From: Opitutaceae bacterium TAV5
GTDB lineage: Bacteria > Verrucomicrobiota > Verrucomicrobiia > Opitutales > Opitutaceae
NCBI GenBank assembly: GCA_000242935.3
Contig: CP007053.1
Location: 4,511,001 to 4,575,000 of the forward strand
Direction: 5' to 3'
Length of the DNA: 64,000 bases
Numbering within the stretch: position 1 is the stretch's first letter; the number at the start of each line of letters is the position of its first letter. The notes beneath the pieces are model-generated. The model saw only the letters and a program-made list of their open reading frames with translations. It had not been told where the DNA came from and searched no databases. The translations under genes and the position numbers were made by a program. This document shows positions 44,253 through 61,773 of the stretch, piece after piece.

Positions 44253-44627
44253 TCAGCGTGCCGCCAGCCAGCAAAGGAGGAAGAGGAGGCAGGCGAGCAG
44301 GTCGCAGAGGGCGCCGGGGAGGAGCAGTTTGCCGAGCGGCGTTGTCCGCCGGCGCAGGACGAGCAGGCCGAAGGCGAGTTTTTCGGCGCCGACGGCGAGG
44401 AGCAGCGGGTGGCGGACCGTCGCATCGCGCGCGGCCCAGAAGAGCAGGAGGCCGCAGATCACGACCAGCACGCCCCAGTGACGCAGGACGAGCCAGCCAC
44501 CCGCGCCAAATGTATCGGCCGGCAGACGACGCGCGAAGACCGTCCGCGGGGCAAGGGCGGCGACGCCTGCGACCAGCGTAAGCGCGGCGATGGCGAAGAG
44601 GATCAGGTGGATGGCGGATTCACTCAT
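44253..44627 (-). CDS. Small four-helix membrane protein
   Basis: 124 residues from ATG 44627, which overlaps the end of the flavoprotein gene by 8 bases. Four hydrophobic helices are seen (IHLILFAIAALTLVAGVAAL, GVLVVICGLLLFWAA, AEKLAFGLLVL, ALCDLLACLLFLLCW) with few charged residues. I do not recognise a family; there are no cysteine pairs, but a lone histidine (LRHWG) lies near helix 2. Its coupling to the oxidoreductase suggests a membrane anchor or partner for that enzyme. Confidence 0.7.
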   Translation of the reverse strand: MSESAIHLILFAIAALTLVAGVAALAPRTVFARRLPADTFGAGGWLVLRHWGVLVVICGLLLFWAARDATVRHPLLLAVGAEKLAFGLLVLRRRTTPLGKLLLPGALCDLLACLLFLLCWLAAR

Positions 44628-46344
44628 GATCGGAAGCGGCCGGGAGGTTGCCGGAGGCAGGCGCGGGGGCCGGGGAATGTGGCGGCGTTCGCGGTTCGGC
44701 GACGGCAGCGAAAGGCTTGAACGAAGAAACGAGCTGGCGGGTTTCGTCGCGCGAAATGCGGAGCAGCGCGACCGGCTCCAGCGCGCGGACGGTGGCGGTG
44801 CGACGCACGTCGTGCAGGACGGCAATCTCGCCGAAATGGTCGCCCGCGCTGAGGATGGCGACAGGCTGGCCGTCCTGTGAACCGCCGGCGTGGCCGGCGT
44901 CGCCGGGAGCAAGCACCTCGACGCTCCCGGACTGGATCAGGTACATGGAGCGGCCGATGTCACCCTGGCGGATGATGACCTGGCCGGGTTCGTAGAGTTC
45001 GCGGGTGACTCCGGTTTGCCCGGAGCTCTGCACGCTGGTGATCTCGCGGCCGAAGAGCGGCACAGTGATCCAGTCGAGCAGGGTGCGCACGCGTTTCGAC
45101 CAGGCGGGCAGGTAAACGATCATGCAGGAGCGCCACACGAGCCAGGCCGGGATTCCTTTCAGCGGCAGCCCGAAAAGCTGGCCGACCGCCTGCCCGGCGC
45201 CGAGCACGCAGCAGTCGCCCATGCCGGTAAACGCATAAGGGCGGAGCGGCCGGCCGCGCAGGGTGCGAAGGAGGTTTTGCCCGACCGTGGCGCCGCCTTT
45301 CATGGCGTAGAGCGCGAGCGCGGGCGCGGTCTCGCCGTTTTTCATCGGGACGGCGGCGCAGTCGCCGGCGCTCCAGACACAGGCCGCGGCATCCACGCGG
45401 CCGAAGGGATCGGTGACGAGGCGGCCGTGGTCGTCGCGCGCGAAAGGAAGCGTATCCAGCAGCGGATGACGCGCGGTACCGGTGCACGAGATGATGGTGC
45501 GGGTGTCGAGCTGCGAATCGTCGGAGAGGAGGGCGGCGACGGGTGTGGCGGACTTGAGCCGGACGCCGAGGCGGAGCGTGACGCCGCGGCGTCCGAGGAC
45601 GGCGGCGGCGTGTTGCGAGAGGGCGGGGAAGCGGCGACCGAGTTCGGGGAGGATGGCGTTGCCGGAATGGACGATGGTGATGCGGCATTCGTCGCGGCGG
45701 ATGCCGGGAAAATCGCGCCGGGCGAGGTCGTCGAGAAAACCGGCGAGTTCGGCGGCGACCTCGATGCCGGCGTAGTTGCCGCCGGCGATGACGAAGTGGA
45801 GGAGCCGGCGGCGTTCTTCGGGATCGGTCTCGGGCTCGGCGAGTTCGAGCATGGCGAGCAGGTGATTGCGCACGCGCAGGCAATCGAGATAGCTCTTGAG
45901 CCGAAGGGTGTGCTCGCCGACGCCGCGGTAACGCGTGAGGTTGTCCACGGAGCCGAGATTGACGACGAGATGGTCGTAATCGACCGTGCCGGGGCGGCCG
46001 TCGAGGTGGCGCGTGAAGTGGACCTGCTTGCGGGCGGTGTCGATGGCATTGGCCTCGGCGCAGATGAAGTGGCCGGGCGCAAAGAGGCGGCGCGAGGGCG
46101 AGATGATCTGCGCGGCCTGGATCTTGCCGACAAGGAGTTCGGGCACGAGGCCGTGGAAGGTATGGTAATTGTTCTGGTCGATGACGATGAGATCGATCTC
46201 TCCGCGGCGGACGGCGTGGCGGAGCTGTTTGACGAGCCAGATGGCGACGTAGCCGCCGCCGAGGACGAGCACGCGGACAGGGCGGCGGGACGCGCGGGTT
46301 GCGGGCGAGGAGGGGGACGCTGGGGTGGCCGGCGATGTTGTCAT
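44620..46344 (-). CDS. NDH-2-like NAD(P)/FAD oxidoreductase with C-terminal cyclic-nucleotide-binding domain
   Basis: 574 residues. About 20-420 form a two-dinucleotide-fold flavoprotein of the type II NADH dehydrogenase kind: FAD loop VRVLVLGGGYVAI (G29-G31), FHGLVPELLVGKI, second nucleotide fold HFVIAGGNYAGIEVAAELAG, and CVWSAGDCAAVPMKN near the flavin. At about 440-550 a cyclic-nucleotide-binding domain follows (ELYEPGQVIIRQGDIGRSMY, DHFGEIAVLHDVRRTATVRA, with the FGE...RRTAT phosphate-binding cassette at 504-516). NDH-2 enzymes pass electrons from NADH to quinone without pumping. Control by a cyclic nucleotide inside the same chain is unusual. Its ATG overlaps the stop of the EF-hand protein by 4 bases. 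Confidence 0.85.
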   Translation of the reverse strand: MTTSPATPASPSSPATRASRRPVRVLVLGGGYVAIWLVKQLRHAVRRGEIDLIVIDQNNYHTFHGLVPELLVGKIQAAQIISPSRRLFAPGHFICAEANAIDTARKQVHFTRHLDGRPGTVDYDHLVVNLGSVDNLTRYRGVGEHTLRLKSYLDCLRVRNHLLAMLELAEPETDPEERRRLLHFVIAGGNYAGIEVAAELAGFLDDLARRDFPGIRRDECRITIVHSGNAILPELGRRFPALSQHAAAVLGRRGVTLRLGVRLKSATPVAALLSDDSQLDTRTIISCTGTARHPLLDTLPFARDDHGRLVTDPFGRVDAAACVWSAGDCAAVPMKNGETAPALALYAMKGGATVGQNLLRTLRGRPLRPYAFTGMGDCCVLGAGQAVGQLFGLPLKGIPAWLVWRSCMIVYLPAWSKRVRTLLDWITVPLFGREITSVQSSGQTGVTRELYEPGQVIIRQGDIGRSMYLIQSGSVEVLAPGDAGHAGGSQDGQPVAILSAGDHFGEIAVLHDVRRTATVRALEPVALLRISRDETRQLVSSFKPFAAVAEPRTPPHSPAPAPASGNLPAASDHE

Positions 46345-48689
46345 GGGGTGGAGGATACGCGGGAACGATTGAGCGCGAGCAGGGTTTCGCGGACGGCGGG
46401 GTGGCGGGCGAGGATCGTTTCGAAGGCCTCGCGGTCGAGCGAGAAGAGGCGGGTGTTGCCATCGGCGACGGCCGTGGCGGCGCGGCGGGCGGAGGCTGAA
46501 AGCAGCGCGCCTTCACCGAAACAGCCGCCGGCGTGGAGGGTGGCGAAAGTCTCACCCTTGCGGCTGATGCGGACGGCGCCGGTGGCGACCATGTAGAACC
46601 TGTTGCCGGGTTCGCCTTCGCGGAGGATGGTTTCGCCGCCCTTGAAAAACACCGGCTGCATTTCGTCGGCAAGATCGGCCACGAGCGCGGTGTTGTTGAG
46701 GTCGCGGAGGAAGGGGACGCGGCCGGCGAGTTGCCGGCGGAGGGCGCGGGTGTTGATGTCGATGCGGCGGTTTTCGTGCAGGGCGCGGAGTTGGGCGCGG
46801 ATGTGCGGGTGATTTTCCGTGAGCCAGGAAAAGGCGGCGCGGGTGAGGGCGAAGAGCGTTGACGGATGGACGGCGGTGATGGTGGCCGAGCGAGGTTCGT
46901 CGGTGAGCAGGCTGCCTTCGCCGATGCAGCCGCCGGGGCCGAGATCGGCGAGGATTTCGCCGGCCTTGCTCACGCGCACGAGGCCGGCGGCGACGAGGTA
47001 GAATTTGTCGCCCTCGGAGCCCTCGGTGACGAGGGTGGCGCCGGCCGGGAAGGTTTCGGAAACGAGCGAGGCGGCGAGGTCGCCGATGAGTTCGTCGCCC
47101 GCACCGGCGAGGAAGGGGACGCGGCGGAGGAGGTCGCGTTTGACCCGCTCGCGGAGGGCGTCGGTCTTGCGGGCATCGAGGACGGCGGAGAGGCCGCGGC
47201 CGATCATCTCGCGGGGGCGGCGCGTCCAGGTGGCGCGGAAGACGTCGTGGTAGATGTAACGCCAGACGGGCTCCATCTTGTGGAGAAATTCGGCGAAGGT
47301 GATGCGGCCGTCGGCATCGCGGTCGGTGCGGGCGAGGTAGCGGTCGGTTTCCGATTCGGGCAGGCCCCACTCGAGGAGGAGCAGGTCGAGCTCGGTGGCG
47401 CCGAGGAGGCCGTCGCCGTCGATGTCGAGGTGACGGAAAACGAGCCCGGCCTTGTCGCGGTCGGTGACGGCGCGTTCGACGGCGATGGCGTGGAGCGCGT
47501 GGGAACGGATGGCGCCGATGCTCCAGAGATCGCGCCGGAAGCGCTCGAAATCGACCGGGCCGGAGGCGAGCAGGCGGTCGGCGCAGGCCGCGGCTGCGGC
47601 GGCGGACAGGCCCCAGGGCGCGAGCGCCTGTTGCAGCTCCTCGCCGTCGAGCTGGCCGTCATGGTCGCGATCGAGTCCGTCGAACCAGTTGCGGGCGGCA
47701 TCCTCGCCGGCAGAGTCCGCAAGGGTGGCGGCTCTCCAGAGATGGGCGGAGTCGGGGGGCAGGGTGCTGTCGCGCGCTTTTTCGCGAACGAAGTCGTTGT
47801 ATTCGGCCGGGGTGCGGATGAAGACGAGGCGGTAGAGCAGGATGTAGGCGCCGATGAAGGTGACCAGCAGGAGGAAGCCGAGCGAGCCGAAGAGGGCGGG
47901 GATCATGGTGGCGCCGGCCGCGAGGATCGCGATGGAGTACTTCATCGGGCTGAAGAGCCTCAGCATGTCGAAGATGTAATAATAAATGCGGCACCAGACG
48001 TAGATGTTGAAAACGAGAAAGGTATTCACCGCCCACATACGCGATTCCGGATGGGCGAGCAGCATGCCGGCGCAGAAACCGTGGGTGACGATGCACAGCA
48101 GGTACGAGGGCACCATGATGGCCTTGCTGCCGAACACGCCGGGAGTCTGGAAAAACGCCGACGGCACATGGAAAAACAGCGCCGCGCAGGCCGTGACGAG
48201 GGCGGCGGGGACATTGCCGGTAACGCAGGCAGTGAAGCCGGCGACGAGTTCGATGCTGCCGGAGAGGATGTGTATCCGCAGAATCCGGCGCCGCCACGGC
48301 ACCATCAGGAATTTCGGATGGGCGGGGATGATGTAGTGGTAGGCGATGACGATGACGTTGGCCAGGGCGGAGATGAACACGAGCGCCCAGGTGCCGGGGC
48401 CGACGGGCGTTTCCGGGCTGCGGGCGAACACCCAGTAGATGGGGAAGGTGAGCAGCAGGAGCGGACCGAGCAGGGCGACGGATTTGCCGGGCGAGGCGAG
48501 CGCGGACGCGGCGGATGCAGCGGCCGGCCCGCTGGCGGCGGCCGAGGATGACAAGGGAGAGGCAACGGCAACGCTTCCTCCGGAGAGCGGGGAGGCGGCT
48601 GGCCGCGGCGGTGTGGTAGAAGAAGAGCCGGCGGGAATCACGGTGAATGCGGACGGACGCAAGCGTAGCAAGTTGCATTCCGTATGCAA
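46341..48689 (-). CDS. Membrane protein with three EF-hands and two cyclic-nucleotide-binding domains
   Basis: 782 residues. A Ser/Ala/Pro-rich stretch (1-70) precedes about seven hydrophobic helices (70-292) with histidines in or near them (AYHYIIPAH, RIHILSG, LFFHVPSAFF, IVTHGFCAG). Three calcium loops follow: DRDHDGQLDGEE (340-351), DIDGDGLLGATE (422-433) and DRDADGRITFAE (456-467), all with canonical acidic ligands. Two cyclic-nucleotide-binding domains (about 525-630 and 655-765) have phosphate-binding cassettes GEGSLLTDEPRSAT and FGEGALLSASARRAA. The combination is not a family I know. It heads a three-gene overlapping operon with the cNMP-domain flavoprotein, suggesting a calcium- and cyclic-nucleotide-sensing redox complex. 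Start ATG 48689; a later start within the low-complexity region is possible. Confidence 0.8.
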   Translation of the reverse strand: MHTECNLLRLRPSAFTVIPAGSSSTTPPRPAASPLSGGSVAVASPLSSSAAASGPAAASAASALASPGKSVALLGPLLLLTFPIYWVFARSPETPVGPGTWALVFISALANVIVIAYHYIIPAHPKFLMVPWRRRILRIHILSGSIELVAGFTACVTGNVPAALVTACAALFFHVPSAFFQTPGVFGSKAIMVPSYLLCIVTHGFCAGMLLAHPESRMWAVNTFLVFNIYVWCRIYYYIFDMLRLFSPMKYSIAILAAGATMIPALFGSLGFLLLVTFIGAYILLYRLVFIRTPAEYNDFVREKARDSTLPPDSAHLWRAATLADSAGEDAARNWFDGLDRDHDGQLDGEELQQALAPWGLSAAAAAACADRLLASGPVDFERFRRDLWSIGAIRSHALHAIAVERAVTDRDKAGLVFRHLDIDGDGLLGATELDLLLLEWGLPESETDRYLARTDRDADGRITFAEFLHKMEPVWRYIYHDVFRATWTRRPREMIGRGLSAVLDARKTDALRERVKRDLLRRVPFLAGAGDELIGDLAASLVSETFPAGATLVTEGSEGDKFYLVAAGLVRVSKAGEILADLGPGGCIGEGSLLTDEPRSATITAVHPSTLFALTRAAFSWLTENHPHIRAQLRALHENRRIDINTRALRRQLAGRVPFLRDLNNTALVADLADEMQPVFFKGGETILREGEPGNRFYMVATGAVRISRKGETFATLHAGGCFGEGALLSASARRAATAVADGNTRLFSLDREAFETILARHPAVRETLLALNRSRVSSTP

Positions 48690-48735: not shown

Positions 48736-48954
48736 TCAACCCGCTTGTTTCACTCCGGGAAGCACGGTCTTGTGGCCGCGAACGCATTCCTTGCCGGCGG
48801 CGAGAGCGCCGAGCCAGTGCGACAGGGTCAGCGCGCTCGAGGCACTGGTGTAGCGTCCGCCGAGGTCGAGGGTCGCGGCCAGTTCGACCAGTTCATCCCG
48901 GAGGGCCAGAAGCTCGGCCAGTGACAGGTCCGGCGGGTGAACGGGCGTAATCAT
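48736..48954 (-). CDS. Hypothetical 72-residue protein
   Basis: A short frame with credible amino-acid composition (LSLAELLALRDELVELAATL, then SALTLSHWLGALAAGKEC). It begins 19 bases after the outer-membrane-protein stop codon on the same strand. No family is recognised and no clear ribosome-binding site precedes ATG 48954. It may be chance coding in GC-rich DNA; given only because it fills an otherwise empty stretch. Confidence 0.35.
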   Translation of the reverse strand: MITPVHPPDLSLAELLALRDELVELAATLDLGGRYTSASSALTLSHWLGALAAGKECVRGHKTVLPGVKQAG

Positions 48955-48973: not shown

Positions 48974-49879
48974 CTAGAACGATGCGGTCAGCGAAAGGGA
49001 GACGAACGCGGCGTCGTCGGGTTCGACCTTCACATTGCGGTCATAATAATCGAATTCGCGTTCGAAAACGTAGCCGCCTTCGACCCGCAGGGACAGGCGC
49101 GGCGTCAGTTTCCAGGTCGCACCGACGCTCGCATTGAACTCGCTGACATCGACTTTGGTGTTACGCAGATTGCGGCCGGCCGGCGCCTGGATGCCGGGAT
49201 CGTCGGTGGCATACGTTCCGCCGTTCACACCCACTCCGCCGAAAACCGAGAGACGGTCGTTCACCGCGTACGCGATCTCGGTGCGCGGCACGCCGGCGGT
49301 GAGCAGCCACGATTCGTTGATCTGCCAGCGCAGGCTGGCGACGGGCATCACGACGTCGTCCGCAAACGGATTCACGCGCACGCCGAAGACCAGCGCGAGG
49401 GCCGGATTCACGGTCCAGCGCGCCATGACGTTGAACGGAACGTTGAAGCGATCGCTGTCGCTCACTTCGCCGTCACCATAGAGGCCGGGGCGGACATTGG
49501 CCAGGAGCTCCCAGTCCGGGTTGATCTGCCAGGTGGCGCCAATGACGAGCGCAACCTGAACCAGTTCATCCGGCAGCGCCACGGCCGCGCTGCTGGTGTT
49601 GATGTCGAGGTAGTCGACGTGGATGCCGCCTTCGAGCGTGATCGCCGGCGACAGCCGATAGGGCTGGATGGCGGTGATCCGGAAGTGGCTGATATCGACG
49701 TCGCCGGTTTTCGAGCCGCCGGTGACGGTGTCGGCGTTGGCGACAAAACCGGCGGAGGCAACGAATTCGACCGAGCCGAAATCGGAGAGGAACGTGGTCG
49801 AAGGCGCCTGGGCGAAAAGGCCGACCGTGGACAACGCGGTGGCGGCGGTGAGCCCGAAGGCGATGTGCTGGATTTTCAT
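48974..49879 (-). CDS. Outer membrane beta-barrel protein
   Basis: 301 residues, signal peptide FGLTAATALSTVGLFAQA. The mature part alternates polar and hydrophobic residues in strands (FGSVEFVASAGFVANADTV, PAITLEGGIHVDYLDINT, LSLRVEGGYVFEREFDYY) and ends FVSLSLTASF with a terminal phenylalanine, the usual sign of a BamA-assembled barrel. Function (porin or surface protein) cannot be read. It is divergent from the LytS-type kinase gene with a 292-base spacer in which I see no clear operator or terminator. Confidence 0.78.
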   Translation of the reverse strand: MKIQHIAFGLTAATALSTVGLFAQAPSTTFLSDFGSVEFVASAGFVANADTVTGGSKTGDVDISHFRITAIQPYRLSPAITLEGGIHVDYLDINTSSAAVALPDELVQVALVIGATWQINPDWELLANVRPGLYGDGEVSDSDRFNVPFNVMARWTVNPALALVFGVRVNPFADDVVMPVASLRWQINESWLLTAGVPRTEIAYAVNDRLSVFGGVGVNGGTYATDDPGIQAPAGRNLRNTKVDVSEFNASVGATWKLTPRLSLRVEGGYVFEREFDYYDRNVKVEPDDAAFVSLSLTASF

Positions 49880-50171
49880 GACAGGAAAAATTCGGATGCG
49901 GTGACTTTGTCCGGCGGCGGGGGAAACCCAACGCGGACCGTTCCGGCGCGTCTGCTTTCGGCCGGGCGCGGAAAAAATGGACGCCAGCGCGGAACGAAAA
50001 ACAGGGCTCTACGGAACTGCGATATCCCTGTCGCCGTGACGACGCCAGGCGCCGCTCCGTCCGGCCTGTCCTCCGCGCCCGGGTCGATTTTTCCGCGCCG
50101 GGACGGGGAAATTTGACTTCGGGCGGACGTCGCCCGGATGCTGGCCGGCGCCTCTCTGGGGCGCGCTACCG

Positions 50172-52187
50172 ATGCAACCAACCGATCCGGCAATCTTCAC
50201 CGGCGTGGAGCTGATCACGCTGATCTGCGCCACGCTGGTGACGGCGATTTTCCTGACACTCTCGCTGCGTGCCGGCTCCGCCGTGGTTGCGCCGCGCGCC
50301 AATGTCATTCTGGCATTGTGCGCGTTCATGTGGAGCCTGGGCGGTATCACGTCCAGCTTGCTGGAAGTCTTCGGCGCCTCCCCGGAAGACCGCTGGCTGC
50401 TGCTGGCGCAGGCGATGAAGATGGCGGGCGCGATCATCTGGATCGTGCCGATGATGGCGATCTGGCGGCCCTACGTGCAGCGCCCCTGGGAGCGGATCGG
50501 CCTGCGGCTGCTGCAAGGCGTCGCGTTGCTGGCGGCGCTGTTTTACCTCGTCACGTATCTGGCCGGAGCTTGGGGCGGGTGGTTTCCGGTGCCGCTGGCG
50601 CAACTGAAAGAGTCGTTTCGTTTCGTGATGGCCGCGAGCGGCGCGGGGATGCTGGTCATCAGCGGAAGCATCCGGAAAACGGAATCGCTGCCCCGGGTCA
50701 TCCGGGTCTCTTTCGGACTTGTCCTGGCGGGGATCCTCATCCTCACCCTCGGGCTCGGGTTGCGCGCCGTGTGCCCCTCGGGTGGCGTCACCGATACGCT
50801 GTCGTTGCTGATCGCCCTGGCGCCGCTGGTCATCCTGTGCGGAGCGCTTTTCCTGTATTCGAAGTTTCGATTCGCCGACTGCTTCATCCATCAAAGCCTC
50901 TTCATCGTCATGACCGCGATCGTTGCCAGCGTGATCGCGGTGTTCTCGCAGGCGAAGGGGGGCGTATGGCTGTGGACCGATCCGGACGGGCCGGAAGCGG
51001 TCCGGATTCTGTTCGCCGGGCTGGCGGTGACGATTCTGTCCGCCGGAACCATTGCGCTCGGCCGGATTCTCAACCGGCTGGTTGACCGCCATATTTTCCC
51101 CCCGCCCGATTACGGGCTCGTCATCGATCAGTTGCGCGAGCGGCTTGCAGCCCTTCGGGACGAGGAGGAAATCGGGCAGGCCGTCACCGCCACCGCGCGC
51201 GAGGTGCTGGACCTGGAGGACGTGCGGGTGGTGACGGTTTCGGAAGGGCTCGCGGTCTCGCTTCCACGGCGGTGCCCCCGCGGATTTGTCGAACTGGCGC
51301 CCGGCGATCCTTTGCACGGGTTGCTGCCGACGGCCGGCGTCGAGTTGCTGGTCCCCGTCCCCGATCGCGGGGAACTGACCCAAGTGCTGGCGATTGCTCC
51401 CGGGAGAAAACGCCGCGGCCTCGTCACGCACGAGATCGGGTTTTTGCGGGAAGTCGCCACCCGGATCAGTTCGCGCCGGGAATCGCTGCGCCATGAACGT
51501 GCCCTGCTCGAAAAACACCACCGCGAGGAGTTCCTGCTCCGGCAGGTGGTGGAGTCCGAATTGCGGGCGTTGCGCGCGCAGGTGAATCCCCATTTTCTCT
51601 TCAACTCGCTCAACACCCTCGCCGACCTCATCGTGACGGACACTGCCCGCGCCGAGACCATGACGTTGCGGCTTGCGCAGGTATTCCGTCACGTGCTCGC
51701 CCACTCGACCCGGCCGCTGGTTTCCGTCCAGGAGGAAATGGATTTCCTGCGCCGCTACCTGTACATCGAGGAGGCGCGTTTTGGCGAACGCTTGCGGGTG
51801 AGTTTCGAGATCGATCCGGAAACCGTGACCCGCGCCATTCCGTCGCTCATCCTGCAACCGCTGGTGGAAAACTCGCTCAAACACGGGCTCGGCCCGAAGC
51901 TCGGCGCCGGACACCTGCGGATCGCCGCGTCGAAGGATGCCGGTCACATCCGGCTTACGGTTGAGGATGACGGGGTCGGCAACGCCGCGGACGCTGTCCG
52001 CGACCCCGTTGTTGCCGCGCCGCGGCGTCCCGATTCGCCGGGCGTGGGTCTGGCCAACGTGCGACGCCGGCTCGAAGCCCTCTATGGCGGGCGCGCCTCG
52101 TTTGCGCTTGAAGCGCTCGCTCCGGCGGGCTGCCGGGCCACGCTGATGATTCCGTTCACCGACGAAGCCCTTCCCGCCACCGCATGA
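50172..52187 (+). CDS. LytS/YehU-type sensor histidine kinase
   Basis: 671 residues. Eight or so N-terminal helices (about 10-300) form a membrane sensor (LITLICATLVTAIFLTLSL, VILALCAFMWSLGGITSSLL), followed by a GAF-like linker (about 315-440). The kinase core is of the His_kinase (LytS) class: RAQVNPHFLFNSLNTLADLI, with the phospho-acceptor H474, and ATPase N box LILQPLVENSLKHGLG plus GVGLANVRRRLEALYG. It overlaps the response-regulator gene by 4 bases. Signal unknown; the membrane part resembles 7TM-type sensors. Confidence 0.9.
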   Translation: MQPTDPAIFTGVELITLICATLVTAIFLTLSLRAGSAVVAPRANVILALCAFMWSLGGITSSLLEVFGASPEDRWLLLAQAMKMAGAIIWIVPMMAIWRPYVQRPWERIGLRLLQGVALLAALFYLVTYLAGAWGGWFPVPLAQLKESFRFVMAASGAGMLVISGSIRKTESLPRVIRVSFGLVLAGILILTLGLGLRAVCPSGGVTDTLSLLIALAPLVILCGALFLYSKFRFADCFIHQSLFIVMTAIVASVIAVFSQAKGGVWLWTDPDGPEAVRILFAGLAVTILSAGTIALGRILNRLVDRHIFPPPDYGLVIDQLRERLAALRDEEEIGQAVTATAREVLDLEDVRVVTVSEGLAVSLPRRCPRGFVELAPGDPLHGLLPTAGVELLVPVPDRGELTQVLAIAPGRKRRGLVTHEIGFLREVATRISSRRESLRHERALLEKHHREEFLLRQVVESELRALRAQVNPHFLFNSLNTLADLIVTDTARAETMTLRLAQVFRHVLAHSTRPLVSVQEEMDFLRRYLYIEEARFGERLRVSFEIDPETVTRAIPSLILQPLVENSLKHGLGPKLGAGHLRIAASKDAGHIRLTVEDDGVGNAADAVRDPVVAAPRRPDSPGVGLANVRRRLEALYGGRASFALEALAPAGCRATLMIPFTDEALPATA

Positions 52188-52945
52188 AAGTTCTGATCGC
52201 AGATGACGAACCCTCGGCCCGCTCCCGCCTGCGCCGCCTGCTCGCCGGCGAGGCCGGCCTGGAAATTGCGGGCGAGGCGGCGGATGGCCTGGCCGTCGTG
52301 GCGATGGTGGAAAGCCTGCGGCCCGACCTCGTTTTTCTCGATATCGGGATGCCCGGTCTCAACGGCCTCGACGCCCTGCGCGCGCTGCCGGCCGGGCAGC
52401 CGCTGCCGCTGGTGATTTTTGTCACGGGCTACGACGAGTACGCGATGAGCGCGTTCAGGGAACACGCGCTCGCCTACCTGCTCAAGCCGGTCGACCGCGA
52501 GGACCTCGCGCTGGCGGTGGAACGCGCCCGCCGTCTGCACGCCTGGGCGGACGATGGCGGACGTGCGCGCCATGCGGTTGCGCGGCTCGCCGGTGAAGTG
52601 AAGCTGCCGCTGCGCCAGATCGTGGGCCGCCGGCAAGGCCGCGTGTTGCTCCTTCCGGTGGAGGGTATCCGGTATTTTTCCATTGACCAGGGGATCGTGA
52701 AGGCCCGGACGGAAACGGAGTCGTACAGTGTGAGTTTTCAGCTCGCCGAGCTGGAGAGCCGGCTGGAGGGAAGCCCGTTTTTCCGCGCCCGGCGCGAGGC
52801 TTTGGTCAACCTCGCGCACGTGCGGGAAATCCGCCCGTGGTTCCGGCGCGGGCTGTTGCTGGTGATGAACGATACGCCGGCCAGCGAGATTGTGGTGAGC
52901 GAGCGTCAGATTCCCGCCTTGCGGCAGGTGATGCCGGGACTGTGA
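52184..52945 (+). CDS. LytTR family response regulator
   Basis: 253 residues. A receiver domain (MKVLIADDEPSARSRLRRLL, phospho-acceptor D53 in VFLDIGMPGLNGLDAL, YLLKPVDREDLALAV) is followed by a LytTR DNA-binding domain from about 140 (GRVLLLPVEGIRYFSIDQG, RARREALVNLAHVREIRPWF). The ATG overlaps the kinase stop (ATGA), so the pair is translationally coupled. It ends 9 bases before the convergent ureC gene; no terminator hairpin is visible in that gap. Confidence 0.92.
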   Translation: MKVLIADDEPSARSRLRRLLAGEAGLEIAGEAADGLAVVAMVESLRPDLVFLDIGMPGLNGLDALRALPAGQPLPLVIFVTGYDEYAMSAFREHALAYLLKPVDREDLALAVERARRLHAWADDGGRARHAVARLAGEVKLPLRQIVGRRQGRVLLLPVEGIRYFSIDQGIVKARTETESYSVSFQLAELESRLEGSPFFRARREALVNLAHVREIRPWFRRGLLLVMNDTPASEIVVSERQIPALRQVMPGL

Positions 52946-52954
52946 AGAGGCGCC

Positions 52955-54730
<1,776 letters not shown>

Positions 54731-54800: not shown

Positions 54801-55124
54801 GGCGGCTGTCGGGGAAAGGGGGCCGTTGACGAGGGCGTTGAGACCGTAGACCTCGCGGGCGCCGGCGAGGGCGACGAGGTGGACGGTTTTGGTGTCGCCG
54901 GCCTCGAAGCGGACGGCCGTGCCGGCCGGGATGTCGAGGCGGTAACCGCGGGCCGCGGCGCGGTCGAAGGCGAGGGCGCGGTTGACTTCGTAAAAGTGGA
55001 AATGCGAGCCGACCTGGATGGGGCGGTCGCCGGTGTTGGCCACGTCGAGCGTGACGGTGGCGAGGTTCTGATTGGCCTCGAGCGGAGGGGCGTCGGGAGC
55101 GGTGATGATTTCTCCGGGAATCAT
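54795..55124 (-). CDS. ureB: Urease subunit beta
   Basis: 109 residues from ATG 55124, the standard start ([13 protein letters not shown]). Conserved beta-subunit sequence: [57 protein letters not shown]. An upstream in-frame ATG at 55163 would add 13 residues encoded at the edge of palindrome D and is less likely. It forms the urease core with UreA and UreC. About 170 bases, mostly repeat D, separate it from ureA. Confidence 0.96.
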
Positions 55125-55292: not shown

Positions 55293-55595
55293 TTATCGGA
55301 TCGGGTTGTGGACGGTGACGAGTTTGGTGCCGTCGGGGAAGGTGGCTTCGACTTGCACGTCGTGGATCATCTCGGGGACGCCTTCCATGACATCGTCGCG
55401 TTTGAGGAGCGTGGTGCCGTGGCTCATGAGATCGGCGACGCTGCGGCCGTCGCGGGCGCCTTCGATGATCTCGTAGGTGATGATCGCAATGGCTTCCGGG
55501 TAGTTGAGTTTCAGGCCGCGCGCCTGTCGGCGGCGGGCGAGGTCGGCGGCGACGACGATGAGGAGTTTTTCACGTTCGCGGGGCGTCAGGTGCAT
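55293..55595 (-). CDS. ureA: Urease subunit gamma
   Basis: The 100-residue small subunit with the canonical start [20 protein letters not shown], then [40 protein letters not shown] and [18 protein letters not shown]. Full family length. It is the first urease structural gene, 45 bases after the urtE stop codon, so urea uptake and hydrolysis genes appear to form one transcription unit. Confidence 0.96.
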
Positions 55596-55640: not shown

Positions 55641-56414
55641 TCAGACCTGGAGGTGTTCGCGGACGATGTCGTCGGTGAGGGCGGCGATGGGGCCGGCGTA
55701 GGTGATGGCACCGCGGTCCATCGCATAAAAACGGTCGGCGACGTCGCGGCAGAAATCGACGTACTGCTCGACGAGGAGAATGGAAAGCTCGCCCTTGAGT
55801 TTTTTCAGGGTGTCGCCGATTTCGTCGATGATCGAGGGCTGGATGCCTTCGGTGGGTTCGTCGAGGATGAGGAGCTTCGGGCGCGTGAGGAGGGCGCGGG
55901 CGATGGCGAGCTGCTGTTGCTGTCCGCCGGAGAGGACACCGCCTTTGCGGGAGGCCATCGACTTGAGCACAGGGAAGAGCGTGTAAACACGGTCGAGGTC
56001 GGGCTGGCCGGCGGCGCCGAGGCGGCCGTGGACGGCGAGACCGACGCGAAGGTTTTCCTCGATGGTGAGGTGCGGAAAAATATCGCGGCCTTGCGGGACG
56101 TAACCGATTCCGGCGCGGGCGCGGACGTCGGTGCGCTGGTTTTTGAGGGCGTGGCCGTCGAGGCTGATCGTGCCGGCGCGAACCGGAAGCAGGCCCATGA
56201 TGCAGCGCAGCGTGGTGGTCTTGCCCACGCCGTTGCGACCCATCAGGCAGACGACCTCGCTGGGACGGACGTCGAGGGTGACACCGCGCAGGATGCGGGA
56301 GCCGCCGATGTTGGCCTCGACGCCGGCGAGCGCGAGCACGGGCGGCGGGGACGACGATGTCGCCGGTTCAGTGTTCGGGGTCCGCAGTTCAGGGTTGTCG
56401 GAAACGGGTGGCAT
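55641..56414 (-). CDS. urtE: Urea ABC transporter ATP-binding subunit UrtE
   Basis: 257 residues from ATG 56414. LivF-type ATPase: Walker A GRNGVGKTT, RAGIGYVPQGRDIFPHLTI, signature LSGGQQQQLAIARALL and Walker B KLLILDEPTEGIQPSIIDEI; the last stretch is characteristic of UrtE. The first 26 residues (SDNPELRTPNTEPATSSS) are not part of the usual fold and appear to come from an intergenic-type repeat read in frame (56363-56402). Energises urea import with UrtD. Confidence 0.93.
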   Translation of the reverse strand: MPPVSDNPELRTPNTEPATSSSPPPVLALAGVEANIGGSRILRGVTLDVRPSEVVCLMGRNGVGKTTTLRCIMGLLPVRAGTISLDGHALKNQRTDVRARAGIGYVPQGRDIFPHLTIEENLRVGLAVHGRLGAAGQPDLDRVYTLFPVLKSMASRKGGVLSGGQQQQLAIARALLTRPKLLILDEPTEGIQPSIIDEIGDTLKKLKGELSILLVEQYVDFCRDVADRFYAMDRGAITYAGPIAALTDDIVREHLQV

Positions 56415-56425
56415 TGCTGGAGATT

Positions 56426-57196
56426 TCACTTGCCGCGGCCGAGGTAAACCTCGCGGACTTTCGGGTTTTGCTGGACGTCGTCGAAATTGCCTTCGCAGAG
56501 GATGCTGCCCTGGTGAAGGACGCTGACCTTGCGGCCCTGGGCGATCTGTTTGACGAAGGTCATGTCGTGCTCGATGACGACGAGACTGTGTTTTTCGGCG
56601 AGGCTGACAAGGAGTTCGCCCGTGCGGTGGGTTTCCTCGTCGGTCATGCCGGCGGCGGGTTCGTCGACGAGGAGGAGGCGGGGCTCCTGGGCGAGGAGCA
56701 TGGCGATCTCGAGCCACTGTTTCTGGCCGTGCGAGAGTTCGCCGGCGAGGCGGGAGGATTGTGTATCGAGGCGGACAAGACGCAGGAGCTCGTCGATGCG
56801 ATCGGCGTGTTCGCGGGGGACGCGGCGGGTGAGGGAGGCGAAGACACCGCGTTTGGCGCGGATGGAAAGGCGGACGTTGTCCCAGACGGTGAGCTGGACG
56901 TAAACGGAAGGGGTCTGGAACTTGCGACCGATGCCGAGTCCGTTGATGGCGCATTCGTCGAGCGCGGTGAGATCGGTGTCGCCGAATTCGATCTTGCCGG
57001 TGTCGGGCTTGGCGCGGCCGGTGAGCAGGTCGAAGAAGGTGGATTTGCCGGCGCCGTTGGGTCCGATGACGGTGCGGAGCTCGCCGGAATCCAGGTAGAA
57101 GTTGAGTCCGTTGATGGCGCGGAAGCCGTCGTAGGTCTTGGTGACGTCCTCGACAGTGAGGAGAACGGGGCGCGGATGGGTGGTGAGCGGGACCAT
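56426..57196 (-). CDS. urtD: Urea ABC transporter ATP-binding subunit UrtD
   Basis: 256 residues from ATG 57196. LivG-type ATPase: VTKTYDGFRAINGLNFYLDS, Walker A IGPNGAGKSTFFDLLTG, the family-typical GIGRKFQTPSVY and ELSHGQKQWLEIAMLLAQEP, and Walker B LLLVDEPAAGMTDEETHRTG. The gene ends 11 bases before urtE. The 53-base spacer ahead of it consists of GCTGAAA-type units. Confidence 0.94.
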   Translation of the reverse strand: MVPLTTHPRPVLLTVEDVTKTYDGFRAINGLNFYLDSGELRTVIGPNGAGKSTFFDLLTGRAKPDTGKIEFGDTDLTALDECAINGLGIGRKFQTPSVYVQLTVWDNVRLSIRAKRGVFASLTRRVPREHADRIDELLRLVRLDTQSSRLAGELSHGQKQWLEIAMLLAQEPRLLLVDEPAAGMTDEETHRTGELLVSLAEKHSLVVIEHDMTFVKQIAQGRKVSVLHQGSILCEGNFDDVQQNPKVREVYLGRGK

Positions 57197-57249: not shown

Positions 57250-58452
57250 TCAGGTGGAGCCGGGTTTGTGGCCGGGTGCGCTCGCGGGCGTGGCGACGGG
57301 CGGCGTGCTGTCGACGGGAGCGGCGGGTTCGGAGACAGGGGTGCCGCTGCGGCGGCGGGAGAGCCAGGCTCGGATGCGCCCCGGGATGCTGACGATGCCG
57401 CCGGGCAGGAGCAGCACGACCACGATGAAGAGCGCGGCCATGATGAAGAGCCAGAGCTCGGGCGCGGCGCGGGTGGCCCAGCTCTTGAGGGCGTTGACGC
57501 CGACGGCGCCGATGATGGGGCCGAGGAGCGTGCCGCGTCCGCCGACCGCCACCCAGACGACGGCCTCGAGGGATTTGTCGGGCGTCATTTCGGAGGGATT
57601 GATGATGCCGACCTGGGCGACGTAGAGCGAGCCGCCGAGGCCGCTGGTCATGGCGGCGAGGACGAAGACGAAGAGTTTGTAGCGCCCGGTGTCGTATCCG
57701 GAAAACCGGACGCGGTTTTCGCCGTCGCGGATGGCTTGCAGGATCTGGCCGGCCTTGGTGCGGGTGAGCCAGCGGAAGAAAAAGAAAACGGCGGCGAGCG
57801 TGAGAATGGAAGCGATGTAGAGGCCGCGGCGGGTGGCGGCGTCGTTGATGTCGAAACCGAGAATTTTTTTGAAATCGGTGAGCCCGTTGTTGCCGCCGAA
57901 GCCGAAGTCGTTGCGGAAAAACATGAGCGCGGCGGCATAGGTGAGCGCCTGGGTGAGGATGGAGAAGTAGACGCCCTTCATGCGCGAGCGGAAGGCGAGG
58001 TAGCCGAAGACCCAGGCGAGCGCGCCGGGAACGGCGAAGACCATGAGCAGCGCGAACGTGAAACTGTAGAAGGGCTGCCAGTGGAGGGGGATTTTTTCGT
58101 AGCCGAGGAAGACCATGAAGTCCGGCATGTCGTTCTTGTACTGGCCGAGCTTGCCGATCATGAGGATGAGGTACATGCCCATGGCGTAGCCGCCGAGCGC
58201 GAAGAAGAGCGCCTGGCCGAGGCTGAGGATGCCGGTGAAACCCCAGAGGAGATCGATGCCGAGGGCGAGGATCGCGAGCGTGGCGTATTTGCCGTAGAGG
58301 TTGAGCGTGAAGTTGCTGACGTGCAGCGTGTGGCCGGAGGGGAAGGCGATGTTGCAGACCGGGAGGATGACCGCGAGGACGAGGAGGACGGCGGCGAAGG
58401 CGGTCCACTGGAGCGGAGTGAAGAGGGAGGAGGTGGTGCGCGCGGGAGTCAC
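57250..58452 (-). CDS. urtC: Urea ABC transporter permease UrtC
   Basis: 400 residues from a GTG start at 58452 (GTGACTCCCGCGCGC). LivM-type permease with about ten helices: LAILALGIDLLWGFTGILSL, GQALFFALGGYAMGMYLILM, FGFGGNNGLTDFKKILGFD and AVVWVAVGGRGTLLGPIIGA. The 35-residue C-terminal tail is Pro/Ala-rich and cytoplasmic. It forms the channel with UrtB. Confidence 0.93.
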   Translation of the reverse strand: MTPARTTSSLFTPLQWTAFAAVLLVLAVILPVCNIAFPSGHTLHVSNFTLNLYGKYATLAILALGIDLLWGFTGILSLGQALFFALGGYAMGMYLILMIGKLGQYKNDMPDFMVFLGYEKIPLHWQPFYSFTFALLMVFAVPGALAWVFGYLAFRSRMKGVYFSILTQALTYAAALMFFRNDFGFGGNNGLTDFKKILGFDINDAATRRGLYIASILTLAAVFFFFRWLTRTKAGQILQAIRDGENRVRFSGYDTGRYKLFVFVLAAMTSGLGGSLYVAQVGIINPSEMTPDKSLEAVVWVAVGGRGTLLGPIIGAVGVNALKSWATRAAPELWLFIMAALFIVVVLLLPGGIVSIPGRIRAWLSRRRSGTPVSEPAAPVDSTPPVATPASAPGHKPGST

Positions 58453-58506: not shown

Positions 58507-60213
58507 TCAGTCCAGGCTGCGGTTGCGGGTGGGGAAGAGGCCGCCGGGTTTCCACTGCAGGAAGAGGATGATGGCGACGAGGACGAGGATCTTGCCCATG
58601 ACGGCGCCGAGGAAGGGTTGCAGGATCTGGTCGATGGAGCCGATGCCGAGCGCGGCGTAAACGGTGCCGGCAAGGCTGCCGACGCCGCCGGAGACGACGA
58701 CCATGAAACAGTCGACGATGTGCGACTGGCCGAGGCCGGGGCCGACATTGCCGATCTGCGCGAGGCAGGCACCGGCGAGACCGGCGAGGCCGGAGCCGAA
58801 GGCGAAGGTGAGCATGTTGACGCGTTCGGTGCGCACGCCCATGCACGAGGCCATGGCGCGGTTTTGCGTGACGGCGCGGATGTAGAGGCCGAAGCGCGTG
58901 CGGTTGAGCAGGAGCCAGGCGCCGGCCACCACGACGACGGCGAAGGCGATCACGAAAATGCGGTTGTAGGTGAGGGTGAGGTCGGCGATCTCGATGTTGC
59001 CGCGCAACCAGGCGGGGCTGTTGATCTGGACATTGGCCGGGCCGAAGACCGTGCGGAAACCCTGCTGGAGGGCGAGCGACACGCCCCAGGTGGCGAGCAG
59101 GCTTTCGAGCGGGCGGCGGTAGAGCCACTGGATGACGCTGCGTTCGAGGACGAGCCCGACCAGCGCTGCGGCAAGGAACGAGATAGGCAGGGCGGCGAGG
59201 AAGTAGTAGTTGTAACCGGCGCCGCTGGCGCCAAACCAGCCGGCGAAGAGATTTTGCGTGACGTAGGTGGCGTAGGCGCCGACGACCATGATCTCGCCGT
59301 GCGCCATGTTGATGACCCCCATCAGGCCGTAGGTGATGGCGAGGCCGAGCGCGGTGACGAGAAGCACGGAGCTGAGGCTGAGGCCGCGAAAGGCGGTGCC
59401 CCAGAAATTGACCCACATGTAGTGATGTTCGATGGACGTGATGGCGGTGCGGGCGGCGCGGACAAGGGCGGGTGAAAGCGTGGGGTCGGCGGGTCGCACG
59501 TCCCCGCGCGCGACGATCTCCTTGAGCTGGGTGACGACGCCGAGGTGGTGGCTCGCCTGGAGTTGCTGGATGGCGGCGATCTTTTCGGTGTCGTTGCCGT
59601 TTTTCAGGTTGATGAGGGCGACGCCGTCGCCGAGCGCGCGACGGACGGCGCGTTTTTTTTCGCGGGTGAGGCGCGTTTCGAGGAGGGGGAGGTAGTCGGG
59701 CCGCTGCGTCATGCCGAGGCGCTCGGCGGCGGCGCGGCGGACGGCGGGGGAAGGATCGGCGAGATCGACGACCTGGCTGACATCGCGGATGGCGCGGCGG
59801 ATGGCGGCATTGGTCTCGATGGAGGTGACCGCCTTGGCCTGGAAGGCGAGGGGAGCAGGTTCGGCATCGGGAGCGGCGGCGGGGTCGGCCGGAGCGGTGA
59901 GCGGCTGGCCGGTTTCGATGGAAAGGGCATTGCGGGTGCCGTCGGGGTTGGCGGTGGCGGAGAGGGTGAACGGGATGCGTTGCCCGTCGGGCGTGGTGTG
60001 GATATAAATCTCGCCGGAACGCCAGGCCTCGAGGGTGGGGCGGATGCGGGCGTCTTCCTCGTTGAGCAGGGAACGGATTTGCGCGGGCTGTTCAGCGGGC
60101 GGCGCGAGCAGGACACGGATGAGGGCGCTGTCTTCGGCGGAAGCCCGGCTCGCGAAAAGAATCGCAACCGGAAGAAGGAAAAACAGGCGGGGAATGGAAC
60201 GGATAAAAATCAC
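58507..60213 (-). CDS. urtB: Urea ABC transporter permease UrtB with N-terminal extracytoplasmic domain
   Basis: 568 residues from a GTG start at 60213 that gives a proper signal sequence (FIRSIPRLFFLLPVAILFAS); a longer open frame upstream crosses repeats. About residues 30-270 are a hydrophilic region with HEAT-like helices (AVRRAAAERLGMTQRPDYLP) found in many UrtB proteins. The LivH-type permease follows: LGLAITYGLMGVINMAHGEI, GLVLERSVIQWLYRRPLES, NRAMASCMGVRTERVNMLTF and GGVGSLAGTVYAALGIGSID. Confidence 0.92.
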   Translation of the reverse strand: MIFIRSIPRLFFLLPVAILFASRASAEDSALIRVLLAPPAEQPAQIRSLLNEEDARIRPTLEAWRSGEIYIHTTPDGQRIPFTLSATANPDGTRNALSIETGQPLTAPADPAAAPDAEPAPLAFQAKAVTSIETNAAIRRAIRDVSQVVDLADPSPAVRRAAAERLGMTQRPDYLPLLETRLTREKKRAVRRALGDGVALINLKNGNDTEKIAAIQQLQASHHLGVVTQLKEIVARGDVRPADPTLSPALVRAARTAITSIEHHYMWVNFWGTAFRGLSLSSVLLVTALGLAITYGLMGVINMAHGEIMVVGAYATYVTQNLFAGWFGASGAGYNYYFLAALPISFLAAALVGLVLERSVIQWLYRRPLESLLATWGVSLALQQGFRTVFGPANVQINSPAWLRGNIEIADLTLTYNRIFVIAFAVVVVAGAWLLLNRTRFGLYIRAVTQNRAMASCMGVRTERVNMLTFAFGSGLAGLAGACLAQIGNVGPGLGQSHIVDCFMVVVSGGVGSLAGTVYAALGIGSIDQILQPFLGAVMGKILVLVAIILFLQWKPGGLFPTRNRSLD

Positions 60214-60272
60214 GGTCAATGACGGAACACGGAACAACAAGCAGGTAGCGCGCCTGGCGCCGGAGATCGGGG

Positions 60273-60310
60273 AAAAAAACGGGGACGGGTCTGGAAGAGC
60301 CCGTCCCCGT
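60273..60310 (-). terminator. Intrinsic terminator-like hairpin after urtA
   Basis: Read on the minus strand, ACGGGGACGGG (60310-60300) pairs perfectly with CCCGTCCCCGT (60289-60279) around a 10-base loop and is followed directly by TTTTTTT. This is a textbook rho-independent terminator in the direction of urtA transcription, placed before urtB, so partial read-through would be needed to express the rest of the operon. Confidence 0.7.
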
Positions 60311-60399
60311 GCAACAACAACTACAAACCAGGGAAACAAGATGATCTCATTCCCCAAACTGGAGGTGCGGGATGGCAGGAAGAGAGGGCGCGGGGGGCG

Positions 60400-60513
60400 A
60401 CGCTTCGCGTCGTCACCACAGGCCTTTTCCGGCTGGAAAAGTCGAGGCCTGTGGCCTACGTAGCGGCATGCCTCTGTGCATGCCATCTGATGCGGGCGGG
60501 ACGCCCGCGCCAC
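60400..60513. repeat. GC-rich palindromic repeats downstream of urtA
   Basis: Several small hairpins follow one another: GACGCTTCGCGTC near 60400, CACAGGCC mirrored by GGCCTGTG (about 60417-60454), GCATGCCTCTGTGCATGC (about 60466-60483), and GCGGGCGGGACGCCCGC (60492-60508). The last is the same unit as in the cluster at 21866-22142. Confidence 0.65.
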
Positions 60514-60522
60514 TCCTCCTTC

Positions 60523-61773
60523 TTACTTGAATTTTCCTTTCAGGAAGGGTTCGCCGTAGACCTGTTCATAGGACTTGAGGATCTTGAACTGGCCGTCGGG
60601 GAGAGTCTCGCCGACATAGACGTTCTTGGTGACGTGGTGATTCTTTTGCACGGTGGCCTTGCCGCCGGGACCGTCGAAGGCGATGTCACCGGATTCCAGC
60701 GCCTCGCGGACCTTGTCCACATCGAAGGAGCCGGCCTTCTCGACCGCGGCTTTCCAGAGGTAGACGCCATCATAGGAGAGCACCATGGGACTGTTGGTCA
60801 CGCGGCCTTTTTTCTCGATGCCGGGGACGGTGCTCTTTTCGAGCCAGGCGAAGAACTTTTTCTTGAACTCGGCGTTGGCCGGAGTGTCGAGCGACATGAA
60901 GTAGCTCCAGGCTCCGAGGTGGCCGACAAGGTCCTTCGTGGGCAGGCCGCGGAATTCGTCCTCGGAAACGGAGAACGACATCACCGGGCAGTCGGCGGAG
61001 TCGATGCCGGCGTTGGCGAGTTCACGGAAGAACGGGACGTTGGTGTCGCCGTTGAGCGTGGAGACGACGCAGGCGTCGCCGGAGGCGGCGAACTGTTTGA
61101 TCTCGGAAACGATCTGCTGGTAGTCGGTGTGGCCGAAGGGCGTGTACTTCTCGATGATCGCCGACTCGGGGATGCCCTTGCTGGCGAGGTACTCCTTGAG
61201 GACGAGGTTCGTGGTGCGCGGATAGACGTAGTCGGAACCGAGCAGGTAGAATTTTTTCTTTCCGAGCTCTCCGAGCAGGTAATCGACGCCGGGCGTGGCT
61301 TGCTGGTTAACGGCCTCGGCGGTGTAGAAGATGTTTTTGGAAAGCTCCTCGCCCTCGTATTGCACGGGGTAGAAGAGGAGTCCGTTGTTCTTCTCGTAAA
61401 CCGGGAGCACGGACTTGCGGCTGACGGAGGTCCAGCAGCCGAAGGTCACGGCGACCTTGTCCTGTTCGAGGAGCTGGGTGGCCTTTTCGGCGAAGAGCGG
61501 CCAGTTCGAGGCGCCGTCGACGACAACGGGTTCGATCTTCTTGCCGAGCACGCCGCCGGCGGCGTTGATCTCGTCAAAGGTGAACAGGAGAACGTCGCGC
61601 AGGGACGTTTCGCTGATGGCCATGGTGCCGCTGAGCGAGTGGAGGACGCCGACCTTGACGGTGTCCTGGGCCTGGGCGAGCGGAGCGGTGGCGAGGGTCG
61701 CGGTGGTGGCGGCGACGGCGGCGGCGAGCGCGAGAGCGCGGGAGCCGGGCATGCGATTCATTTTTGCGGTCAT
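60523..61773 (-). CDS. urtA: Urea ABC transporter substrate-binding protein UrtA
   Basis: 416 residues with a signal peptide ([21 protein letters not shown], cleavage near QAQD). Periplasmic type I binding protein of the amide-urea class: [78 protein letters not shown] and [19 protein letters not shown]. Captures urea for UrtBC. It follows the porin gene by 256 bases and is separated from urtB by a terminator-like hairpin, so it is probably made in excess of the permease. Confidence 0.94.

Follow-up and report, generated by a model that had tools for sequence, protein, structure and literature searches.

The window analysed here, the whole 64,000-nucleotide stretch of Opitutaceae bacterium TAV5 (contig CP007053.1, positions 4,511,001 to 4,575,000), contains an operon of three genes on the minus strand. 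According to the sequence comparisons, the trio appears as a small, lineage-restricted, urease-linked cassette, in which the predicted sensors for calcium and cyclic nucleotides are carried by a membrane protein without known relatives and by a diverged flavoprotein. We tentatively propose, at less than even confidence, that the trio is one signal-gated membrane redox complex serving urea catabolism. The three genes are as follows (positions are those of the window).

46341..48689, minus strand: gene 1, 782 residues from TTG 48689 or 766 residues from GTG 48641
44620..46344, minus strand: gene 2, 574 residues, an oxidoreductase of flavin adenine dinucleotide (FAD) and NAD(P) that resembles type II NADH:quinone oxidoreductase (NDH-2), with a C-terminal cyclic-nucleotide-binding (cNMP) domain
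44253..44627, minus strand: gene 3, 124 residues, four hydrophobic segments, without a family match

The neighbouring open reading frames (ORFs) overlap by 4 bases (genes 1 and 2) and by 8 bases (genes 2 and 3). These coordinates agree with an earlier reading of this DNA made without database searches (the sequence-only reading), and the EF-hand, cNMP-binding and NAD(P)/FAD flavoprotein domains that it had named in the trio all give significant Pfam matches. We are unsure which of the two start codons of gene 1 is used. The trio recurs with the same order and overlaps in a second genus of the family (g14), where gene 1 is 59–60%, gene 2 70–71% and gene 3 35% identical to the TAV5 copy. This recurrence in another genus is more than chance, and supports the view that the trio is a co-inherited unit. 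Terminator-like sites were not significantly enriched (5 versus 2.6 in shuffles); one of them (44266-44254) lies at the end of gene 3. A 72-residue ORF upstream of gene 1 (48739-48954) is without any Pfam match.

The membrane domain of gene 1 was found in 5 of 252 family genomes, namely TAV5 and four genomes of g14 (G333, G352, G369 and G705). These few carriers are termite-gut and environmental bacteria. The co-occurrence search called for by the sequence-only reading gave gene 3 in the same five, among 200 genomes searched. The gene 2 ortholog was detected in 4 of 150 genomes (>1100 bits), plus G705 from outside that sample. Gene 2 follows gene 1 in five of the six copies with the downstream side visible, and the seventh copy is cut by a contig end. 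The EF-hand protein is thus usually accompanied by the flavoprotein; the sequence-only reading had named the opposite finding as one that would refute it. The exception is a gene 1 relative of 46% identity in G705 (L117:3405-5675), which stands alone and has three canonical EF loops. It adjoins OEP and HlyD efflux genes, and beta-CASP nuclease-type and PP-binding (acyl-carrier-like) genes.

Searches with the whole protein 1 gave matches in 5 of 150 genomes of the family sample at 1e-20 (a match to the cNMP part only, in G337, was not counted as an ortholog) and in 2 of 286 genomes of the class at 1e-20, TAV5 itself and one cNMP-only match. In the phylum, the whole-protein profile matched 6 of 387 genomes at 1e-20, the five beyond TAV5 in the cNMP part only, and the membrane-domain profile matched 4 of 387 at 0.01, three of them being weak partial matches of 17–18 bits. 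A wider contig scan with protein 1 alone confirmed nothing, and a scan with the gene 1 alignment, using two short patterns that distant relatives could escape, returned five loci in four metagenome-assembled genomes (G369, G333, G705 and G352), none of them a new copy. No plasmid match to gene 1 was found, and the two patterns gave no confirmed match in viral contigs.

The gene 1 product consists of a hydrophobic part, followed by an EF-hand region and two cNMP-binding domains (Pfam: EF-hand_7, 2.7e-12; cNMP_binding, 4.1e-40, in two stretches). The domains of gene 1, and the cNMP domain of gene 2, are located as follows. EF-loop residues are numbered in the 766-residue form.

47745..48482, minus strand: membrane domain of gene 1
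47637..47672, minus strand: EF-hand loop 1, residue 324, canonical in six of six gene 1 sequences
47391..47426, minus strand: EF-hand loop 2, residue 406, canonical in six of six gene 1 sequences
47289..47324, minus strand: EF-hand loop 3, residue 440, canonical in TAV5 and the G705 paralog
46773..47060 (approximate limits), minus strand: first cNMP-binding domain of gene 1, phosphate-binding signature IGEGSLLTDEPRSAT
46401..46652, minus strand: second cNMP-binding domain of gene 1, phosphate-binding signature FGEGALLSASARRAAT
44725..44997, minus strand: cNMP-binding domain of gene 2, phosphate-binding signature FGEIAVLHDVRRTAT

Within gene 1, conservation is highest in the membrane domain, with identities of 70% to g14 and 57% to the G705 paralog; the other (sensor) parts show 40–55%. 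All six of its His residues are invariant in three lineages, compared with 115 of 236 residues overall. Hydropathy gives six segments, two of which are adjacent (237-275), and structure models add polar helices at 116-140 and 198-229. The number of membrane helices is seven or eight, depending on whether 237-275 is counted as one or two, in line with the seven or so of the sequence-only reading. The domain has no significant match in Pfam, NCBIfam or PDB sequences. Seven membrane-domain sequences of the gene 1 family gave no Pfam match at E values up to 10, and thus no ferric-reductase match. The mean predicted local distance difference test score (pLDDT) is 49.7 for the model of the full-length product and 66.2 for the membrane domain alone. 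Foldseek returned nothing at E <= 0.001 for the domain model, the best match being bacteriorhodopsin at 0.48 with a template modelling (TM) score of 0.29. A second fold comparison gave Z scores up to 10.1 to soluble helical bundles, which is within noise for helical models. Because these fold matches are weak or within noise, no fold is assigned to the membrane domain.

The three canonical EF-hands of the sequence-only reading are present in TAV5, and only two of them hold in the second genus. Canonical 12-residue Ca2+ loops number three in TAV5, two in each of four g14 copies and three in the paralog; loop 3 is lost in all four g14 operon copies tested. The EF loops of gene 1 are thus a predicted calcium sensor. 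The two cNMP domains of gene 1 and the single one of gene 2, already recognized in the sequence-only reading, were found by Pfam, and their phosphate-binding signatures are kept (12 of 12 in six gene 1 sequences, and four of four gene 2 copies tested). We take the GE...R pattern to be the phosphate-binding cassette of ligand-binding domains of this type. By the kept signature, the three domains are predicted cyclic-nucleotide binders.

The gene 2 product matches Pyr_redox_2 (1.6e-26) and cNMP_binding (2.6e-21), and among solved structures, NDH-2 enzymes give the best scores to its enzyme part. In the alignments, the FAD motif (GxGxxG/A) reads GGGYVA, and the GD and YD motifs are present, as in the NDH-2 fold. 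The C-terminal anchor region matches NDH2_C (PF22366) in part, with a score of 23.3 bits (7.2e-5), below the cut-off of 27.7; the G705 copy scores 23.8. According to an excerpt of a motif survey, the main quinone motifs of NDH-2 are AQxAxQ, AQxAxR and APxAxQ (PMC5299459). The corresponding site of gene 2 is different.

45298..45315, minus strand: quinone-motif site of gene 2, ALYAMK (ALxAxK)

None of the three recognized motifs is kept in the operon copies. At the same site the g14 orthologs have ALxAxQ, in three as aligned and in the fourth as read. The NADH motif GxGxxGxE is also altered, to GGNYAGIE, in the four operon copies aligned. Among 15 relatives from outside the operon (the loci examined of 48 listed, one being the second copy of TAV5), which are 28–37% identical to gene 2, the quinone site reads AQxAxR in nine, GQxAxR in five and AIxAxM in one, and GGGxxGVE is retained by 14. 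The second NDH-2-like protein of TAV5 (L091) has AQxAxR. The phosphate-binding Arg of the cNMP domain is kept in eight of the 15, and both of two relatives checked by Pfam have C-terminal CBS domains. Neither the gene 1 membrane domain nor gene 3 was found near any of the 15 loci, within the flanking DNA examined. The AIxAxM relative (G081, L082:6615-7892) is truncated, 37% identical and without the FAD-binding N-terminus; it resembles gene 2 in the altered motif region, and its genome is without gene 1 or gene 3. It may be a decayed gene.

At 1e-60, 43 of 150 family genomes have NDH-2-like proteins; the operon orthologs are among those counted, as are relatives covering less of the cNMP part. 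In 21 of the 150, a match from outside the operon reaches at least position 514 of the 550-position profile, that is, through the cNMP domain; thus, NDH-2-like enzymes fused to a cNMP domain are not peculiar to the operon. Because both the quinone and the NAD motifs are altered, we regard gene 2 as NDH-2-like by descent, without classing it as an NDH-2. Of the sequence-only reading, the NDH-2-like origin and the domains of gene 2 are supported.

Gene 3 was described as a four-helix membrane protein, and hydropathy shows four hydrophobic segments in its product. It has no significant match in Pfam, NCBIfam or PDB sequences; PDB sequence matches at E values of 0.61 and 0.91 were taken as chance.

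The urease linkage, absent from the sequence-only reading, is the strongest functional clue to the trio. The window also holds a urt-ureABC locus on the same strand, and the operon starts 4.3 kb beyond ureC. The flanking genes examined were a GntR-type regulator, an outer-membrane protein, a kinase, a response regulator and ureC. The features of the locus and of the interval are listed below; limits of ureB, ureA and the ATPases are from tblastn, and for the three genes between the operon and ureC, membership in the module is unproven.

48974..49879, minus strand: DUF6268 outer-membrane protein
50172-52187, plus strand: histidine kinase of the His_kinase family (LytS-type)
52184-52945, plus strand: LytTR response regulator
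52955..54730, minus strand: ureC, urease alpha subunit (Pfam)
54816-55124, minus strand: ureB
55296-55595, minus strand: ureA
55644-56345 and 56474-57163, minus strand: two ABC ATPases, presumably urtE and urtD by gene order
57250-58452 and 58507-60513, minus strand: two BPD_transp_2 permeases, presumably urtC and urtB
60523-61773, minus strand: Peripla_BP_5 binding protein, presumably urtA

The 668-residue UrtB-type permease (58507-60513) carries a long extension at its N-terminus, which matches HEAT_2.

The trio lies in the urease locus in all five genomes that bear it. It is located between ureC and ureE, on the opposite strand, in G333, G352 and G705; in G369, gene 3 is beside ureC on one contig and gene 1 beside ureE on another. 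The ure genes were confirmed by Pfam, with UreE, UreF, UreG-type and UreD in g14. In this genus gene 1 and ureE are divergent, with called starts about 190 bases apart. In three g14 genomes without the trio (G401, G164 and G384), ureC is directly followed by ureE. The ureC gene itself is present in 56 of 150 family genomes (E <= 1e-100; the G369 fragment falls outside this cut-off). UreC of G333 (L126, L131) and G352 (L127, L130) aligns with TAV5 UreC in two pieces (2-408 and 410-591) with an extra stretch between them; aligned UreC is 610 residues long in these two trio-bearing genomes, versus 589 in g14 genomes without the operon.

In the UreC and UrtC trees, the trio-bearing g14 genomes group with their own genus and TAV5 groups with its genus mate G287 (in the UrtC tree, four inner branches are unresolved and two rows are long). 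Joint transfer of urease and operon between the two genera is thus rejected. The trio is patchy in both genera, and its position and orientation differ between the lineages. As the urease trees follow the genera and the operon is patchy, two lineages have either retained or gained the linkage, each in its own arrangement. This holds whether the operon is ancestral with frequent loss or was acquired twice. The DNA match between TAV5 and G287 ends at the ureC stop, within 37 kb compared, and the part of G287 compared has, beyond ureC, nothing that matches the DNA of the outer-membrane and LytS/LytTR genes (48974-52945).

The TAV5 genome encodes three class III cyclases (PF00211), located elsewhere on the chromosome than the operon. 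At a candidate class IIIb position, two of them have YT and one has YS. We take this position to be the class IIIb marker, and the T of YT to be the same residue as the threonine described for cyclases in the literature. That threonine is thought to predict bicarbonate regulation, according to an excerpt of a cyclase paper (PMC3383692).

From these observations we infer complex formation, an electron path, ligands, a direction of gating and a link from bicarbonate to cyclic AMP (cAMP). The three proteins would form one membrane complex, in which gene 1 would contribute a new domain of seven or eight helices, with its EF-hands and its two cNMP-binding domains forming an arm in the cytosol, and gene 3 would be a small four-helix partner. 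NAD(P)H would reduce the FAD of gene 2. From there the electrons would enter the membrane part, where gene 1, gene 3 or both would accept them, possibly through a cofactor site of invariant His residues or through a quinone bound at a non-standard site. This flow would be opened or closed by Ca2+ binding to the EF-hands and by cAMP (or cyclic GMP) binding to the three cNMP domains. The position in the urease locus suggests that the complex answers urea breakdown. Of the products of urease (ammonia and CO2/bicarbonate), the bicarbonate could act through the class IIIb-like cyclases to raise cAMP, so that a urease product would be tied to the cyclic nucleotide, a tie that we infer only. In its most specific form the proposal holds that an undescribed domain of seven or eight helices takes electrons from an NDH-2-derived flavoprotein without the standard quinone site, and that Ca2+ and cAMP gate this transfer by urease flux, the bicarbonate being read via class IIIb-like cyclases. 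We consider this version distinctly doubtful; if true, the bacterial trio would constitute a new class of membrane redox machine.

Several observations weigh against a redox complex serving urea catabolism. The oxidation of NAD(P)H by gene 2 is putative and unproven, its motifs being altered. As a sign of heme binding, the invariance of the His residues of gene 1 is not significant when 20 residue types are allowed for. The TAV5 operon is not adjacent to ureC, as genes for an outer-membrane protein and a two-component system lie in between, and the ureEFGD genes of this genome are about 0.59 Mb distant; G287 has a collinear urt-ureABC locus without the trio. No promoter-like site was found for the operon; upstream of gene 1 and in the interval separating it from ureE, the best CRP-like site matched 7 of 10 positions. 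No flavoprotein or urease genes are present on the 12-kb contig of the standalone gene 1 relative in G705. This relative indicates that the function of gene 1 need not depend on gene 2, and the membrane domain may have another job. Such a job could be that of a channel or transporter gated by Ca2+ and cyclic nucleotides, moving the ammonium, bicarbonate, Ca2+ or protons of ureolysis, with the flavoprotein as a redox regulator. The higher conservation of the membrane domain than of the sensor parts, its many invariant polar residues and its one occurrence without the flavoprotein agree with this idea, whereas the lack of a Pfam or PDB sequence match speaks against it, and the fold matches are weak; we regard it as rather unlikely.

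On a view in line with the sequence-only reading, gene 2 would feed electrons to quinone like an ordinary NDH-2, under the control of Ca2+ and cyclic nucleotides, with gene 1 as its regulatory anchor. The Pyr_redox_2 match, the solved relatives and the partial NDH2_C match point in this direction. In the excerpt of the survey, the motifs covered about 70% of the family and about 30% lay outside them (PMC5299459), and the GQxAxR of five of the 15 relatives is likewise outside. This view is nevertheless unlikely, because gene 2 has no recognized quinone motif, its NAD motif differs from the GGGxxGVE of 14 relatives, and TAV5 has the other NDH-2-like protein with AQxAxR. Of the proposal that calcium and a cyclic nucleotide gate respiratory electron entry, the sensor domains in the membrane partner and in the enzyme are supported, and the NADH:quinone chemistry is not. 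Alternatively, a rarely transferred operon may have settled beside ureC twice by chance, without a functional link to urease. The patchy occurrence and the differing position and orientation would be expected of such a passenger. However, the divergence of genes 1 and 2 between the genera falls among the values for neighbours kept by vertical descent (UrtB 50–51%, UrtC 61%, UrtA 74–77% and UreC 84%), the GC content at third codon positions (0.84–0.86) is within that of the adjoining genes (0.75–0.91), and the linkage holds in five of five genomes, which makes this explanation quite unlikely. The cNMP domains also match the Pycsar effector profiles of PADLOC (2e-28), as would an anti-phage effector set using cyclic pyrimidine nucleotides. 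The best PADLOC stretches span the cNMP domains only, no cyclase is present among the flanking genes examined, the three class III cyclases being elsewhere on the chromosome, and the urease linkage is conserved; such a role is highly improbable.

A search of open-licence papers found no description of a flavoprotein system with these calcium and cyclic-nucleotide sensors, in agreement with the sequence-only reading, which knew of no bacterial system of such make-up. To our knowledge, it is chiefly in eukaryotes that membrane redox enzymes are known to be controlled by calcium and cyclic nucleotides. If both types of sensor, an orphan membrane domain and a flavoprotein are united in bacteria and tied to urease in two lineages, they would be a small, testable model of such control, and the trio is a candidate link of second messengers to urea use in a termite-gut bacterium.

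With the NDH-2 family, gene 2 shares the architecture of an FAD/NAD(P) flavoprotein with two dinucleotide domains, the GD and YD motifs and an anchor-like C-terminal region. It differs from the family in its quinone and NAD motifs, in the extra cNMP domain and in its constant neighbours with membrane domains. The other NDH-2-like proteins of the Opitutaceae resemble gene 2 in the order of the NDH-2-like and cNMP domains, and differ in their low identity and in their neighbours. NOX5 is an EF-hand NADPH oxidase, and, as a possible analogy only, it likewise joins EF-hands, a membrane domain with conserved His and an FAD/NAD(P)H flavoprotein in one system. In the trio, however, the flavoprotein is a separate NDH-2-like chain, cNMP domains are present and the membrane domain has no ferric-reductase match in Pfam. 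The external NDH-2 enzymes of plants and fungi with an EF-hand are of the NDB type. EF-hand insertions occur in NDH-2s, according to the excerpt of the survey (PMC5299459); the gene 2 chain contains no EF loop and no EF-hand Pfam match. The trio and these external enzymes both join EF-hand calcium sensing to an NDH-2-like flavoprotein, whereas the trio has cNMP domains in addition and carries its EF-hands on a membrane protein distinct from the flavoprotein.

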